Below are positions 35,869 through 42,651 of a stretch of DNA of 53,657 bases, piece by piece. The position numbers were made by a program, and so were the translations under genes. The notes beneath the pieces were generated by a model. It did no database searches and had not been told where the DNA came from. It saw nothing but the letters and a program-made list of their open reading frames with translations. Source of the DNA: Prochlorococcus sp. AG-347-K17 (GTDB lineage Bacteria > Cyanobacteriota > Cyanobacteriia > PCC-6307 > Cyanobiaceae); assembly GCA_003281385.1 (NCBI GenBank), contig QCCE01000011.1, positions 1 through 53,657 on the forward strand, in the 5' to 3' direction. Every line of letters starts with the position of its first letter. Within the stretch, counting starts at the first letter, position 1.

Positions 35869-37026
35869 TTAAGAACGAACCTGCACAGGCATAACTAAAT
35901 AAGTAAAAGAATTAAGATTATCTTCTGGAACAAAAACAGCTGGTGTAGTTGCAATATTACACTTTAAAAGTACATTTTCAGAAGCAATAACTTTTAAACC
36001 CTCTAACAAATATCTTACGTTAAATGCAATATCAAAATTTTCTCCAGAATAAGATACAGGTATTGATTCATTTGCATTTCCAATATCTTGAGCATCTGCG
36101 CTAATTGAAGCTAAATCTGTATCATTTAATTTAATCTTTACAACACTACTTTGTTGATCAGCTAAAACAGCAATTCTTTCTAATGAATCAATTAATTTTT
36201 TTGTATTAAAATTTAGAATTTTAGAAAAAGAATCAGGAATTAATTGTGAATAATTAGGATAAGTACCTTCTAAAGTTCTTGTAGTAATTATTTGATTAGA
36301 AGATATAAATACTACTTGACCTTTGTCATAGAAAAGCTTAATTGAATTTTCTGAGCTTCTCAAAGATACTAGTTTTTCAATTTCTCTCAATGATCTAGTT
36401 GGAATAGTTACCGATAAATCTTCAACATTTGAAGATAAGTTTTCTTTATTTTCAATATTTTCTTCATTACCAATTAAGGCAACAGCCAATCTATGACCAT
36501 CTGTAGAAGCAGACTCTAAATAATTTGGTTTAAAAGTAAAATTGACACCTGTGAGTAGTTGCTTTGAATCATCATTACTACTGGCAAAAATAGTAGATTT
36601 TAAAGCCTTTAAAAAGGAACTAGGATCAATATTCAAAGAAGTACCGCTTTCAACAAATGGCAAATTAGGATATTCATCAGAGGGGATCCCTTTTAGATTG
36701 AAAGAACCTCTATCACTTTTTATTAGAATATTATCTGAATTCTCGTCTACTTCTAGAGAAACAGGAGTTTCAGTAGGTAGTTTGTTTACTATTTCGGATA
36801 AAAGTTTTGAAGGTATAGTAATAGCTCCACTATTTTTGACAGTTCCATCAAAAGAAGTTTGAATTCCTAAATTTAAGTCAAATCCTGTGACGCTAATTTT
36901 ATTAGTTCCTTCATCAGCTGTTAAAAGTATGTTTGCAAGAATTGGATGCGTTGGCCTTGAAGCAACTGCCTTGCTTACTAATTGTATAGCATTATTTAAT
37001 TCATTTTGATTACAAATAATTTCCAT
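35869..37026 (-). CDS. dnaN: DNA polymerase III beta subunit (sliding clamp)
   Basis: DnaN forms the ring that holds polymerase III on DNA. The 385-residue protein has three repeated clamp domains. Typical segments are VSKAVASRPTHPILANILL at 17-35, the FNLKGIPSDEYPNLP stretch near 110-125, RSLREIEKLVS near 213, and a C-terminal TYLVMPVQVR. It reads away from the likely replication origin, whose 337-base gap lies directly upstream. This dnaN-at-origin order is standard for cyanobacteria. Confidence 0.98.
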   Translation of the reverse strand: MEIICNQNELNNAIQLVSKAVASRPTHPILANILLTADEGTNKISVTGFDLNLGIQTSFDGTVKNSGAITIPSKLLSEIVNKLPTETPVSLEVDENSDNILIKSDRGSFNLKGIPSDEYPNLPFVESGTSLNIDPSSFLKALKSTIFASSNDDSKQLLTGVNFTFKPNYLESASTDGHRLAVALIGNEENIENKENLSSNVEDLSVTIPTRSLREIEKLVSLRSSENSIKLFYDKGQVVFISSNQIITTRTLEGTYPNYSQLIPDSFSKILNFNTKKLIDSLERIAVLADQQSSVVKIKLNDTDLASISADAQDIGNANESIPVSYSGENFDIAFNVRYLLEGLKVIASENVLLKCNIATTPAVFVPEDNLNSFTYLVMPVQVRS

Positions 37027-37136
37027 CAGAATTTGGAACTTTTTACAAATACAATATACTTTTTTCGTAAATTAAATTCAATAAATTTATTTTTTACTTT
37101 TTTTCTAATATAAAAATAAATAATAAAAAAAAAATT

Positions 37137-37148
37137 TAGTAGTAGTAG
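37137..37148 (+). promoter_or_regulatory. DnaA-trio-like TAG repeats
   Basis: TAG occurs four times in a row (37137, 37140, 37143, 37146), between the AT-rich block and the first tandem DnaA-box-like pair. Read 3' to 5' it is GAT repeated, the form of the DnaA-trio that DnaA uses to open origin DNA in Bacillus. Confidence 0.55.
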
Positions 37149-37152
37149 TTCT

Positions 37153-37170
37153 TGTGGGAACTGTGGAATT
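37153..37170 (-). promoter_or_regulatory. Tandem DnaA-box-like pair next to TAG triplets
   Basis: Two adjacent minus-strand boxes, GTTCCCACA (37153-37161) and AATTCCACA (37162-37170), match TTTTCCACA at 6 and 7 of 9. They begin four bases after the TAG triplets in the orientation expected for loading DnaA onto that strand. Confidence 0.5.
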
Positions 37171-37215
37171 CTTCAATTAAACAGCTTGTTTATTTAGTTT
37201 ACAAAGAAAAGAATA

Positions 37216-37244
37216 TGTGTAAAAAATTTTTTATTTGTTGAAAT
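37216..37244 (-). promoter_or_regulatory. Two further DnaA-box-like sites, same orientation
   Basis: Minus-strand TTTTACACA at 37216-37224 matches TTTTCCACA at 8 of 9. ATTTCAACA at 37236-37244 matches at 7. Both share the orientation of the pair at 37153-37170. Confidence 0.4.
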
Positions 37245-37273
37245 TTTTTTATTTTTTTCGAAAATTTGAAATT

Positions 37274-37343
37274 TATTCAACAAATAGAATTTCTTGTTAT
37301 GTACTTTTCAACAGATGAGGTTTGTTTTTAATTGATTTCCACA
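37274..37343 (+). promoter_or_regulatory. Three forward-facing DnaA-box-like sites
   Basis: Plus-strand sites TATTCAACA (37274-37282, 7 of 9), TTTTCAACA (37305-37313, 8 of 9) and ATTTCCACA (37335-37343, 8 of 9) are spaced about 30 bases apart. Their orientation is opposite to the four sites on the left. Confidence 0.45.
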
Positions 37344-37363
37344 GACACTATTTTTTTTGGATT

Positions 37364-38467
37364 TTAATATCCTAAGATTTTAGTTATATTTTTTAATGAA
37401 GGTTCAATATTTTTCCTAAAAATAGCATCGTTGTTTTTTATAGCGCAATCAGGATCTTTCAATCCATTTCCAGTCAGAACACAAACAATAGTCGATTCTT
37501 TCTGAATTCTATTTTTATTTTTAATCAGTCCAGCAACTGATGCCGCACTAGCAGGTTCACAAAAGACTCCCTCTTTGGCAAGAAGTTTATAAGCATTGAT
37601 TATTTCTTCATCTGTAACTGATTGAAAGTCTCCTTTACTTTCTTTCTTTACTATTTTTGCTTTTTCTCTATTTACAGGATTCCCAATTCTAATAGCTGTA
37701 GCAATTGTTTCTGGATCCTTAACAATTATATTTTTTACTAATGGAGCAGAGCCTTCAGATTGAAAACCCATCATAATTGGTAATTTTAAATTTCTTTTTA
37801 TTTTTGAATATTCTTTAAATCCCATCCAATAAGCAGTTATATTTCCTGCATTGCCCATTGGAATGCAAAGCCAATCAGGAGCAATACCTAAATCATCAAC
37901 TATTTCAAAAGCTGCTGTCTTTTGTCCTTGTATTCGATATGGATTTACAGAATTAACAAGTTCTATAGGATGTTCTGAGGATAAATCTCTAACTATTTCA
38001 AGAGCCTTATCAAAGTTTCCATTAATAGATATTATTTCGGCACCATACATTAAAGCTTGCGCAAGCTTTCCTTGTGCAACAAATCCTTCTGGGATTAAAA
38101 CATAAGGTTTTAATCCTCCTCTAGAAGCATATGCAGCAGCAGCAGCAGAAGTGTTTCCAGTACTTGCACAAATTACTGCTTCACGACCTTCTTCTTTTGC
38201 TTTGCTAATCGCCATAGTCATACCACGATCTTTAAAAGATCCTGTCGGATTAAGGCCATCATATTTTAAAAAAACTTTTGTTCCATTTCCAATTAAGTTA
38301 CTAATTGATTCGCTTTGAATTAATGGAGTGTTTCCTTCATTGAGGGAAATAATAGGAGTTTTATTAGTAACCGGGAGATATTGTTTATAAGCTTCTATTA
38401 GACCTGGCCATCTTTTTTTTCTGTAATTAATACGCAGTTTATTTTTAATTTTATGCAATAACACCAT
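37364..38467 (-). CDS. thrC: Threonine synthase
   Basis: ThrC converts O-phosphohomoserine to threonine with PLP. The 367-residue protein has the PLP lysine Lys79 in [14 protein letters not shown], and the PLP-phosphate loop region [14 protein letters not shown] near 200-215. The length and short N-terminus match the compact bacterial class. It is the first gene on the right side of the origin and reads toward it, while dnaN reads away. It is six bases after the DUF1400 gene. Confidence 0.96.
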
Positions 38468-38473
38468 GATTGT

Positions 38474-39046
38474 TTAATTTGATTTAATTCTTTCTAGAGG
38501 AGAATTGGTGAAAAAGGTTAATAATTCTGAAATCGATTCTACTTTATTCATAACTTTGCTCAAAGCGCTGACATCTAAAATTACAGTTTTAGTTGGGTAC
38601 CCTTCAAAAAAATTTATTAGATTTATTTCACCTTTTCCAATGTTAATTCCTTGAATTACGCTTGCTCTAAGGGCCAACATGCCTGTTCTATTATCTGTTG
38701 CTCTGGGAGGGTGAATAATAGATGAAAGTCTTGTTAAAAAAACATTTCCTATTTCAGAATATACTAGTTTGCTTGCAATGGTAATAGGAATTTCAAAATC
38801 TTTATTTAAAACTGTTCTAATTTCTTCATCAGGAGATCCAGTTGCTTTCAAAATTCTTTTTAATTTACCTGTAGATTTACCTTCTTTGACAAAAGTTTTT
38901 AAAGAATTCACTGTAATTGTCCTCGAAAATATGCCGTATGTGATTTTAATTTCTTCAGCAGCATTAGCTTTTGGAACATTAAAAAATAATGGAGAAATTA
39001 CTAAAATAAAAAATATTTTAAATAATAAAAATTTACTAGACTTCAT
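38474..39046 (-). CDS. DUF1400 family secreted protein
   Basis: This 190-residue protein has a signal peptide (hydrophobic 8-22, likely cut after ANA near 29). It contains the block ITYGIFSRTITVNSLKTFVKEGKSTGKLKRIL, typical of the cyanobacterial DUF1400 domain, which often precedes an alpha/beta hydrolase domain. Here the hydrolase part is absent, so it is the domain alone, expected in periplasm or lumen. The function is unknown. It starts one base before the ABC1 kinase stop, a tight same-strand junction. Confidence 0.85.
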   Translation of the reverse strand: MKSSKFLLFKIFFILVISPLFFNVPKANAAEEIKITYGIFSRTITVNSLKTFVKEGKSTGKLKRILKATGSPDEEIRTVLNKDFEIPITIASKLVYSEIGNVFLTRLSSIIHPPRATDNRTGMLALRASVIQGINIGKGEINLINFFEGYPTKTVILDVSALSKVMNKVESISELLTFFTNSPLERIKSN

Positions 39047-40903
39047 TTAGATATTTGCACCAGCGGCAATCTTAACAAGTCTTACTACTCCTTTTTCAGT
39101 AACTTTCTTTGCAATTTTTATACCCATTTCTTTTGTGTAGGGCTCATTTATAAGTCTCGGAACCCTTTTTACGAAAATGTCAATCGAATAGCCGGGTACT
39201 TTTTGTAAAATCTCTAAAAAATTTCTCAATGGCGCAACATACATTATAAGATCATTCAAGTTATTATTTTCGTTAGTAGTATTTAATTTAATTGATTGAG
39301 GAAGATAATTATTTAAACTTTTCAATATTTTTAGACTAAGTAAATCTATCTGATTTGTTAAACCTTCAACTATCTCATTTCTAAGAAATCCTCCATTTGG
39401 AGAAAAGAGAAGATTTATAACTTCGTCTAAAAGTTTTTCTAAGTCGAGATTTGTTTGCTTGGCAGCGTTAGAAAGAAGATCTTCTAAACGATCCCATTTA
39501 AATTTTTTATTATCAAAAAGCATTTCTTTAAGGCTTTCCCTTAATTGTGGATCAGGGTCTTCCATTAACCTTCTTGCAAAATATGGATAAGCTGCGCCTA
39601 ATATTTTGAAGTTTGGATCTACACTTAAAGCTATTCCCTCTAATGTAAGTAATGATCTAATTATAAGAGCATAATACGGGGGTAGTCTGAAAGGGAATTT
39701 ATACATAACACCAGACATATCGTCAGTAACGCTCTTAAAATCCATTTTCGAAACTCCTTGTTCAACGGCGTTAATGAAAACATCTTGAAATGCTGGAACT
39801 ATGGGTTCTAGATTAACTTCCTCTGATAAAAATCCTAATTTAACAAAATCTTGAGACAATTTATCGAAGTTTTTATTTACTAAGTGAACTACTGCTTGAA
39901 TTAATCCTGACCTAGATTTTCTGGAAACTTCGCTCATCATTCCAAAATCTAGATAACATAATCTGCCATCTTCTAGGGCTAATAAATTACCTGGATGCGG
40001 GTCTGCATGAAAAAAACCATGTTCTAAAAGTTGTTCTAAACTGCATTGCACCCCTATATCAATCATGTCATCAGGATTAATTCCTAATTTTTTAACGTCT
40101 TCTAAATTTGTTAATTTTGTACCGTCTATCCATTCCATTGCTAAAACTCTTCTTGAAGTTATTTCTTTATAAATTTTTGGGACGGCAATCATCTTGTTAT
40201 GTTTATGCATATCTCTAAATTTTTCTGCATTTGCAGCTTCGTTTAGATAATCCATCTCTTCAAAAACTCTCTTGCCTAATTCATCAATCAAAGCAACTAG
40301 ATCACTTCTTATCAATCTGATATTGTTTTTTAGCCAATAAGCAATGTTCCTTACAATGTAAAGGTCTAAGGTTATTTGTTCTCTTAAACCTGGCCGTTGT
40401 ACTTTTATTGCAACGATCTCTCCATTTTTTAATTTGGCTTTATGCACTTGACCTAAAGAAGCAGCAGAAATTGGCTCCTTATCAATTTCTAAAAAAATCT
40501 CATTTATTTTGTTTCCTAAATCTTCTTCTATTAATTCCATAGCTTTATCGCCATCAAAACCAGGGAGCTGATCTTGTAATTCAGATAATTCTTCTAGAAG
40601 TATTCCTGGGATTATATCTGGTCTTGTTGATAAAGCTTGGCCTGCTTTAACAAATGCAGGTCCAAGTTCTACTAACAAAGTTGTTAATTCTCTTGCTCTA
40701 AATCTTGCTTGTGGTTCATTTTTCAATCTTCCAGTCAATTTATCCCATCCAACAGAAAAGATGTAAGCAAAAATTGGTATAAGTGTTTGCCAAAGTCTTT
40801 TTAAGAGTCTTCTAGGATTTTTTTTGTAAATTTTAGAAATTGTATCTGGATCATAATTTAAGAGTCCTGATACCTCAATAAAATCAGTAAAATCTTCTTT
40901 CAT
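39047..40903 (-). CDS. ABC1/UbiB-family atypical kinase
   Basis: This 618-residue protein belongs to the ABC1K (UbiB/COQ8-like) group. It has the KxGQ motif (KAGQ at 86-89), an Ala-rich nucleotide loop SAASLGQVHKA, and kinase catalytic residues in HADPHPGNL and YLDFGMM. Cyanobacteria and plastids have several such proteins, tied to quinone and tocopherol metabolism. C-terminal helices may anchor it to membranes. Its substrate is not evident. It is divergent from recN with 68 bases between. Confidence 0.93.
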   Translation of the reverse strand: MKEDFTDFIEVSGLLNYDPDTISKIYKKNPRRLLKRLWQTLIPIFAYIFSVGWDKLTGRLKNEPQARFRARELTTLLVELGPAFVKAGQALSTRPDIIPGILLEELSELQDQLPGFDGDKAMELIEEDLGNKINEIFLEIDKEPISAASLGQVHKAKLKNGEIVAIKVQRPGLREQITLDLYIVRNIAYWLKNNIRLIRSDLVALIDELGKRVFEEMDYLNEAANAEKFRDMHKHNKMIAVPKIYKEITSRRVLAMEWIDGTKLTNLEDVKKLGINPDDMIDIGVQCSLEQLLEHGFFHADPHPGNLLALEDGRLCYLDFGMMSEVSRKSRSGLIQAVVHLVNKNFDKLSQDFVKLGFLSEEVNLEPIVPAFQDVFINAVEQGVSKMDFKSVTDDMSGVMYKFPFRLPPYYALIIRSLLTLEGIALSVDPNFKILGAAYPYFARRLMEDPDPQLRESLKEMLFDNKKFKWDRLEDLLSNAAKQTNLDLEKLLDEVINLLFSPNGGFLRNEIVEGLTNQIDLLSLKILKSLNNYLPQSIKLNTTNENNNLNDLIMYVAPLRNFLEILQKVPGYSIDIFVKRVPRLINEPYTKEMGIKIAKKVTEKGVVRLVKIAAGANI

Positions 40904-40971: not shown

Positions 40972-42651
40972 ATGTTAATACAACTAAAAATAGAAAATAT
41001 TGCCCTAATAGAAATTATAGAAATTAATTTCGAAAAAGGTTTGAATATCATAACTGGGGATTCTGGTTCAGGAAAATCATTAATTTTGGATTCCCTGAAT
41101 GCTTTATTTGGTGGAACTAATATACCTCTAAAACATTTAATACGTCCAGGAAAAGATTTTTGCGTTATTGAGGCATTATTTTCTTCTTCTTCTCAAATTA
41201 ATAATTGGTTAACTAGTAATGGTTTTGAAATAACTTCTTCAGAACTACAAATTAAAAGAAAATCTTATAAAAAGAACAATAAAATCTTATCCAAATATAG
41301 CCTTAATGATTTACCAATTAATAGACAATCTTTAGAAAAACTTGGAGGATTTTTAATAGATTTTGCAGGTCAATCCGACACTTTTATCTTTGATTCTTTA
41401 GATAAGAGAAGATTAATTATTGATGACTTATGTTCCCAAAAGTTTAGAGAGACTAGCGAAAGGATTAGAAGTATATGGGGAGAAACTAAAGTTTTAAAAA
41501 AATTAATGGATGAAAAAATAGATTTTTCTAAGAATCAAGAAGAAAAAAACTTGGCAATTAAACACATGTTGAAGAGTTTAGAAGAAGCTGATTTAAATTC
41601 CAGTGAAGAAATTTGTGAATTAGAGTTAGTAGAAAAAAAACTTGTAAATAATTTAGAAATTAATAATTCAATTAAATCATCATTAGAAAATTTAAATAAT
41701 TTTAATCATGATGAGCCGTCAGTAACTTCTTTCATAAATCAATCAATAAAGATTTTAAATAAAACAGCAGATTTCGATTTAAAGATTCAAAACTTTAGAG
41801 AGAAGTTCTTAAATATTCATGCTGATATTGAAGATTTAATTTTTGATCTAAACTCATATTTGCAAGAAATAGAAAATCATGAATCTAATCTTCCAGAAAT
41901 ACAAAAAAGATTATTCTTTTTAAAAAATTTAGAGAGAACTTTTTCATTGGATCTTACTCAATTAATTGAAAAGCGCGATCAATTAAAGACGTATTTTCAA
42001 CAGAATGATCAAGCTAGTGATATTTCCAGGATTCAAGCTCAGATTGCGAATTTACAAAGGAATTTAGATTCTTTATTTGTTATTCAATCTACTGAAAGAA
42101 AAAAAATTGCTAAACATTTACAAAATTCAGTAATGTCGATATTAAGCAATCTAGGTTTAGAAAATGCAAATTTTTCAATTCAATTTTCTGAATGCAAGCC
42201 TTCTGGCGATGGAATTGACGATATAAATTTCTTGTTTTCTGCTAATCCTGATCAGAAGCTTGCTCCATTATCAAATGTTATTTCTGGTGGAGAAATGTCA
42301 AGATTTTTATTAGCTATTAAATCTAGTATTTCTAAACAACCAAATACTTTCTTTTTAGATGAAATTGATAGTGGTTTAAGTGGTAAATCTCTATTTTCTT
42401 TGGTTGAGCTAATAAAAGAAATTTCTAAAAATCAACAAGTCTTATGTATTACACATCAGCCATTCCTAGCTGCTAGGGGATCAGCTCATTTCAAAGTTAA
42501 TAAAAAAGTAATTGATAGAATAACTTACACTTCAATTGCAAAGCTAACTACAAAAAATCAAAGAAAAAAAGAACTAATAGAACTTATAGGTGGAGTCTCA
42601 TGCGAAGTAAACGAATATGCTTCTAGACTTCTTGATCGCTCAGCTGCGTAA
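40972..42651 (+). CDS. recN: DNA repair protein RecN
   Basis: RecN is an SMC-like ATPase acting in double-strand break repair. The 559-residue protein has Walker A GDSGSGKS at 29-36, a long central coiled coil (about 170-370), the signature ISGGEMSRFLLAIK and Walker B FFLDEIDSGLSG near the end. The length is normal. uvrA follows on the same strand after 54 bases, making a repair pair. The ATG at 40972 is supported because the upstream ATG at 40958 runs into a stop after four codons. Confidence 0.96.
   Translation: MLIQLKIENIALIEIIEINFEKGLNIITGDSGSGKSLILDSLNALFGGTNIPLKHLIRPGKDFCVIEALFSSSSQINNWLTSNGFEITSSELQIKRKSYKKNNKILSKYSLNDLPINRQSLEKLGGFLIDFAGQSDTFIFDSLDKRRLIIDDLCSQKFRETSERIRSIWGETKVLKKLMDEKIDFSKNQEEKNLAIKHMLKSLEEADLNSSEEICELELVEKKLVNNLEINNSIKSSLENLNNFNHDEPSVTSFINQSIKILNKTADFDLKIQNFREKFLNIHADIEDLIFDLNSYLQEIENHESNLPEIQKRLFFLKNLERTFSLDLTQLIEKRDQLKTYFQQNDQASDISRIQAQIANLQRNLDSLFVIQSTERKKIAKHLQNSVMSILSNLGLENANFSIQFSECKPSGDGIDDINFLFSANPDQKLAPLSNVISGGEMSRFLLAIKSSISKQPNTFFLDEIDSGLSGKSLFSLVELIKEISKNQQVLCITHQPFLAARGSAHFKVNKKVIDRITYTSIAKLTTKNQRKKELIELIGGVSCEVNEYASRLLDRSAA

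Follow-up and report, generated by a model that had tools for sequence, protein, structure and literature searches.

The window analyzed here, a 53,657-nucleotide stretch of Prochlorococcus sp. AG-347-K17 (contig QCCE01000011.1, positions 1 to 53,657), contains a predicted replication origin between dnaN and thrC (Table 1). Because dnaN begins at 37026 and is encoded on the minus strand, the elements follow one another along the dnaN strand as box, box, 4 bp, four CTA triplets, an AT block with a predicted dnaN promoter, and finally dnaN. The tandem 9-mers abut, are co-oriented and each differ by two bases from the cyanobacterial DnaA box TTTTCCACA, of which the dnaN–thrC intergenic region holds no perfect copy. 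The strand opposite the boxes bears 3'-GAT-5' four times, which is the trio orientation of the basal unwinding system (BUS). The whole module (37137–37170) spans 34 bp. A preliminary description had reported an AT-rich run, four successive TAG triplets and two adjacent box-like sites in the minus orientation upstream of dnaN, and the sequence coordinates confirmed it. A coding explanation of the TAG run was ruled out, as the stretch is intergenic. One relative (L014) carries a perfect TTTTCCACA at apparently the same place as the box-like TTTTCAACA (37305..37313), judged by eye.

Table 1. Features of the predicted origin and its borders (window coordinates; box mismatches are counted against TTTTCCACA).
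Feature	Coordinates	Strand	Evidence
dnaN, DNA polymerase III beta clamp, 385 aa	35869..37026	-	TIGR00663, E 1.1e-98, above cut-off
dnaN–thrC intergenic region, predicted oriC	37027..37363		80.4% AT; 11 box-like 9-mers vs 3.4 in shuffles; skew sign change across region
AT-rich block, predicted DNA unwinding element, overlapping predicted dnaN promoter	37041..37136		91.7% AT (window, 68.7%); placed relative to trios as in BUS
Predicted dnaN promoter, TTGAAT-17-TATATT	37053..37081	-	5 such sites found vs 3.4 expected, weak alone; columns 37027–37085 mean 95% conserved, 93 distinct Prochlorococcus sequences
Four DnaA-trios, plus strand TAGTAGTAGTAG (5'-TAG-3' ×4), 3'-GAT-5' ×4 on predicted DnaA-bound strand	37137..37148	+	mean column conservation 0.984
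Spacer TTCT, 4 bp	37149..37152		sequence variable; length fixed in register scanned
Trio-proximal DnaA box GTTCCCACA (plus strand TGTGGGAAC)	37153..37161	-	2 mismatches
Second tandem DnaA box AATTCCACA (plus strand TGTGGAATT)	37162..37170	-	2 mismatches; exact 9-mer in 72/78 named Prochlorococcus sequences
Box-like TTTTACACA	37216..37224	-	1 mismatch
Box-like ATTTCAACA	37236..37244	-	2 mismatches
Box-like TATTCAACA	37274..37282	+	2 mismatches
Box-like TTTTCAACA	37305..37313	+	1 mismatch
Distal DnaA box ATTTCCACA, opposite orientation, candidate loop partner	37335..37343	+	1 mismatch; all nine columns >=90% conserved
thrC, threonine synthase, other border of region	37364..38467	-	TIGR00260, E 6.3e-96

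As published, the BUS rule calls for a DnaA box with at most two mismatches to the species motif, a tandem box with at most four, a spacer of at most 16 bp and at least three consecutive 3'-NAN-5' trios, and the system has been predicted in 1755 of 2070 species (PMC8287927). The site has two mismatches in each box, a 4-bp spacer, four 3'-GAT-5' trios on the correct strand and, beyond the trios, DNA that is 91.7% AT; the surrounding cluster of 11 box-like 9-mers, none of them perfect, is of the kind expected of an oriC. The genome has one DnaA match, on another contig than dnaN. It carries the single-strand-binding residues (the ISM isoleucines I190 and I193, with N187, R202 and E228) and the arginine finger (R264); the trio-capture set (E183, N187, R202, E228) and K222 and E223 are likewise identical to B. 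subtilis DnaA (PDB 8btg numbering), and position N196 (B. subtilis numbering) is D here. As a separate observation, the DNA-reading motif DHTTV reads DHSTV in 24 of the 28 family DnaA proteins (from L342–L371) that have this protein site (T415 in B. subtilis numbers). The inner box lacks the A of CCACA in 22 of 24 DHSTV genomes versus three of eight genomes with T, a comparison uncorrected for kinship.

The closest described counterpart is the B. subtilis BUS (DnaA-box 6/7 plus trios), which shares with our site the two co-oriented boxes, the short spacer and the 3'-GAT-5' trios (PMC6669920, PMC10721633), as well as the position upstream of dnaN, the extra distal boxes and the DnaA pocket residues. 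The B. subtilis module occupies the interval between dnaA and dnaN and requires a distal box as well (PMC6669920), and a requirement for the BUS in vivo has been shown for B. subtilis and H. pylori. Unlike in B. subtilis, dnaA is not adjacent here, the boxes are imperfect and of the TTTTCCACA type, and four perfect trios take the place of six of a degenerate motif, all six of which are engaged in the cryo-EM model. The order and orientation that the preliminary description had likened to the B. subtilis system, together with the spacing and the trio motif, thus agree with the published definition. Its label "Bacillus-like" suits the layout; it undersells an arrangement common in the cyanobacteria examined, and it does not extend to dnaA, which lies on another contig.

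Within the phylum, a useful comparison is genome G263. Its PsaA matches that of PDB 6KIF/6KIG, which we take to be S. elongatus PCC 7942, at all 763 residues. G263 carries the module upstream of dnaN (E 8e-11 with profile R1, described below; boxes start at -152 and -143), where it reads TTTTCCACA TTTTCCACA GCCC CTACTACTACTG, with the same order as here. It differs in having eight perfect boxes within 1.5 kb upstream of dnaN, compared with none in our intergenic region. S. elongatus DnaA separates its cognate scaffold in vitro only when both boxes and trios are intact (PMC8287927). Cyanobacterial oriC has been predicted next to dnaN with TTTTCCACA boxes (DoriC 10, PMC6323995; PMC4674748), matching the location and box type found here, and DoriC 10 records have gained trio-like motifs (PMC6323995); trios for Prochlorococcus are not described in the available text of these two papers. 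Our literature search found no description joining DnaA-trios and Prochlorococcus; the supplementary table of PMC8287927 may already include this site.

GC skew gave a mixed picture. The skew check proposed in the preliminary description came out partly in its favor: skew changes sign across the site (window skew of -0.094 to the left and +0.069 to the right of 37150), and the cumulative minimum lies near 41 kb, ∼4 kb from the site, at the boundary to a plus-strand gene at 40972. In a single-contig relative (G015), the skew arms averaged +0.015 and -0.014 over 20 sampled stretches (400 of 1658 kb; 19 readable), which is the right sign and weak. We also noted that thrC and the next two genes (37364–40903) are transcribed toward the site, with the cumulative minimum near their far end. 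In populations of Prochlorococcus HLI and HLII, read coverage is bilinear around a fixed terminus, with the peak position not stated in the available text (PMC9589681).

We searched for the site in related genomes with a profile built solely from 18 sequences of other families, which was run over dnaN-upstream DNA. The site was found in 28 out of 28 sequences of the genus (the window being one of them) and in 78 out of 78 named Prochlorococcus sequences, 119–139 bp from dnaN; the two sets overlap, and four of 110 loci with fewer than 160 bases upstream were omitted. The assignment to the genus follows the labels of the nearest among 80 named dnaN loci, which are up to 98% identical and carry the name Prochlorococcus; two of the 80 are labeled uncultured Synechococcaceae. 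Merging the sets gave 95 distinct Prochlorococcus sites, all of them found. The exact TAG run was present in 21 of the 28 genus sequences and 64 of the 78 named ones, with the remainder one base different. Spacer 4-mers were diverse (15 different among the named and 15 among the genus sequences) and the register was constant. Mean column conservation across 93 distinct Prochlorococcus sequences was highest in the trios among the six segments compared (0.984), followed by the outer box (0.962, cut as 37161–37169), the dnaN-promoter end (0.952), the AT block (0.91), the inner box with spacer (0.906, 37149–37160) and the rest (0.852). Part of this conservation may be transcriptional, because the predicted dnaN promoter shares the intergenic space.

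A wider scan was blind to the middle trio bases and counted as positive only scores above all 360 shuffled controls. It found the module in 99 out of 100 sequences taken upstream of dnaN from the family's other genera (40 chosen one per genus and 60 from mostly GC-rich genera, added after C-centered trios had appeared) and in 18 out of 20 sequences from other families of the class. The conservation across relatives on which the preliminary description had staked its reading is thus clearly in its favor. Of the two class sequences that were missed, one comes from a genome (G053) that carries its match next to dnaA, with dnaN some 1.6 Mb or more away, and the module therefore does not need dnaN. 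R1 matches lie 236–482 bases past the 3' end of dnaA in four genomes (G053:C1, G370:C24, G361:C155 and G296:C76).

To cover whole genomes, we used R1, a 40-column model trained on 33 sequences all from the same class, several of whose genomes were also searched. The search took in 241 class genomes (completeness of at least 97%, plus the genome studied here), with strict filters that lose weak matches and with rough E-values, and gave a match at E<=0.1 in 214 genomes and at E<=1e-3 in 179, including 14 out of 14 of the genus and 18 out of 26 from other genera of the family. The 1e-3 split and the family counts were tallied from result rows, with seven module-less genomes obtained by difference. 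Strong matches were frequent in family f12 (32 of 35 genomes) and less so in f15 (13 of 28). The blind profile found the site in seven of the eight genomes of our own family that had no strong R1 match (G064, G115, G121, G140, G149, G160 and G206; G220 was outside the scan), G121 barely passing (11.0 against a threshold of 9.4). Most cyanobacteria that we examined have the box-box-spacer-trio layout.

These data bear on a reading in which the TAG run and boxes serve to control the dnaN promoter, for example through repression of dnaN by DnaA, and are not the place of opening. A promoter-like site does lie within 100 bp, and the dnaN end is conserved about as well as the outer box. Against such control, the spacer varies in sequence and not in length and the trios hold a 3-base rhythm, as a single-strand filament needs, and the G053 module sits by dnaA, far from dnaN. 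We consider promoter control very improbable, and strand opening remains our preferred reading of the block.

The family also offered a view of which trio bases can change, its dnaN-upstream DNA ranging from 17% to 64% GC. Trio letters are given for the top strand, the DnaA-bound strand being the complement. The 95 distinct Prochlorococcus sites hold 380 trios, of which all 380 end in A and 379 have T in the middle; the first base drifted (C 363, T 14, A 3). The other members of the family contributed 99 sites (396 trios, 42 genera). Here the first base was C in 391 out of 396, the middle base varied (T 256, G 130, A 6, C 4), and so did the third (A 279, G 108, T 7, C 2). The bound strand thus shows C in place of the middle A 130 times, T six times and G four times (140 changes, in GC-rich relatives). 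A one-per-genus subset (39 sites) gave 26, one and one, respectively (28 changes), and enriched sampling therefore does not create the A-to-C pattern. Middle G occurred in 21 of the 42 genera, middle C in four and middle A in two, and the number of middle-G trios rose with local GC (Spearman 0.73, n=99). GC-rich relatives (L282–L341 and L032–L071; e.g., L329, L322 and L315) carry trios such as CTACGACTACGG, C-centered on the bound strand, and the box-adjacent trio retains its adenine in 97 of 99 sites. The box T columns, taken for comparison, changed to C 21 times, to A 15 times and to G once; in C versus G, box columns and trio middle base differ (Fisher p 5e-21, uncorrected for kinship), with the proviso that the box columns helped find the site and the middle columns did not.

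A matching preference is known from the laboratory. Strand separation in B. subtilis survives a change of the middle A to C, which also allows better growth than a change to G or T; the amine common to A and C has been proposed to contact Asn187 (PMC10721633). Asn187 is present in all 29 DnaA proteins retrieved from 30 genomes of these genera. From the substitutions observed we infer that the lineage follows the chemical rule of trio recognition; our literature search found no report of a natural A-to-C bias at the middle trio base in GC-rich relatives.

Some cyanobacteria appear to have no module. Nine families (f28, f31–f36, f38 and f39) had no R1 match at E<=1e-3 in any of 33 genomes, R1 having been trained on module-bearing lineages, and 29 of the 33 had DnaA. 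Only four of the 241 genomes lacked a DnaA above the TIGR00362 cut-off (G346, G352, G358 and G441), all of them in the nine families and none with a strong R1 match. One of these (G346, f32; listed as 99% complete) also gave no dnaN match at E<=0.001 with the window protein as query. Inspection of dnaN-upstream DNA in 29 module-less genomes found no trio run (defined as three or more NTN, including two CTA, no farther than 14 bases from a box) in any, and the same rule flagged the control G263. Perfect boxes near dnaN numbered at least three in 12 of the 29 and at most one in the other 17. Two of the 12 (G323 and G406) keep short trio-like remnants beside a box pair, CTATTAATA and CTACTG, of which the CTATTAATA remnant satisfies the published three-trio rule. 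Nine loci (L254, L256, L260, L263–L266, L271 and L272) show clusters of perfect boxes upstream of dnaN without CTA-repeat trios, with an abutting pair in six of nine and short remnants in L260 and L263.

The trio-pocket residues of DnaA were kept in the 20 module-less genomes compared. In the DnaA tree, genomes of f32, f33 and f31+f38+f39 fell in three separate places, with low deep supports, and the module-bearing G269 and G370 branched next to f32. An account in which the module-less families are simply DnaA-independent was rejected as too simple, given the DnaA genes, the box clusters, the two remnants and the scattered placement in the DnaA tree. Our literature search found no report of the nine-family absence. 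Genome G402 has a PsaA that differs at ∼6 of 751 residues from PDB 4KT0/5OY0, presumably Synechocystis PCC 6803. It has DnaA and lacks both an R1 match and a box near dnaN. Synechocystis 6803 and Synechococcus 7002 can do without dnaA, and Cyanobacterium and Geminocystis have no such gene (PMC7198777). The pattern, as seen in dnaN-upstream DNA, fits a putative disappearance of the module from lineages that do not need DnaA.

The same genomes speak to a second alternative, that the site is an origin opened by boxes and AT block alone, with the trios serving another strand-specific step such as helicase loading. Since boxes are kept without CTA-repeat trios in 12 of the 29 inspected genomes, which belong to other families, some origins may work without trios, and DnaD is reported to bind in a strand-specific manner to the B. 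subtilis origin (PMC10201434). On the other side stand the S. elongatus trios, needed for strand separation in vitro (PMC8287927), and the changes in the family, where the first base stays, the middle one is A or C and the third is free to vary, a pattern that matches the DnaA pocket (PMC10721633). We think this alternative very improbable.

Searches of the genome itself spoke for a nonrandom site. The 12-mer CTACTACTACTA is present once in the 1,497,472-base genome, at this site; its reversed pattern matches three times, so uniqueness of the 12-mer is only modest evidence. R1 had a single match at E<=0.1 in the genome, which was this site (E 3e-9, the sequence being among the 33 used in training). 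In shuffles of the intergenic region, box-like 9-mers (at most two mismatches to TTTTCCACA) reached the observed 11 in one of 1000 cases, two of the 11 being two readings of one palindrome. Perfect copies of TTTTCCACA total 14 in the genome, where the reversed pattern matches 22 times, and two of these copies lie 24 bp apart away from the origin contig (G000:C9:21349-21381). The three reversed matches might suggest that the TAG run arose by chance, as a trinucleotide repeat of AT-rich DNA. This is scarcely credible: no such run appeared in 5000 dinucleotide shuffles of the region, every tabulated Prochlorococcus sequence has at this position either the 12-mer itself or a run one base different, and the family and class sequences that were positive in the blind scan have a run related to it. 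Conservation, more than chance statistics, is the decisive point for the reality of the site.

We observed the anatomy of the site, its uniqueness in the genome, its conserved position and spacing, a DnaA with trio-binding residues and a like arrangement in G263. The block is very probably the strand-opening module (BUS) of this Prochlorococcus origin. DnaA would bind the two tandem boxes, and the DnaA filament would then be fed onto the four 3'-GAT-5' trios of one strand, pulling open the AT-rich DNA between the trios and dnaN, and replication would start at this site. The distal conserved box at 37335–37343 may raise local DnaA by looping, as proposed for B. subtilis. The window copy is a canonical member of an already known system, to which our analysis adds a phylum-wide picture and a natural test of the trio code.

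The 34-bp module gives origin-plasmid and in vitro experiments a concrete target, and its presence may be a sequence mark separating DnaA-dependent from DnaA-independent cyanobacteria. On balance we favor reading the family as a natural readout of the DnaA trio code, in which AT pressure (Prochlorococcus) would move the first base, GC pressure in its relatives would turn the middle A into C, very rarely into G or T, and the third base would drift freely, as a dinucleotide pocket with an Asn-to-amine contact predicts. Trios would vanish once they have become dispensable, for instance in DnaA-bearing genomes of the Synechocystis type, and in some lineages with the boxes kept; C-centered trios would be a working variant outside the published 3'-NAN-5' rule. 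The GC range of the family lets evolution test the model of trio recognition, the middle change tolerated in the laboratory being the one found repeatedly in nature.
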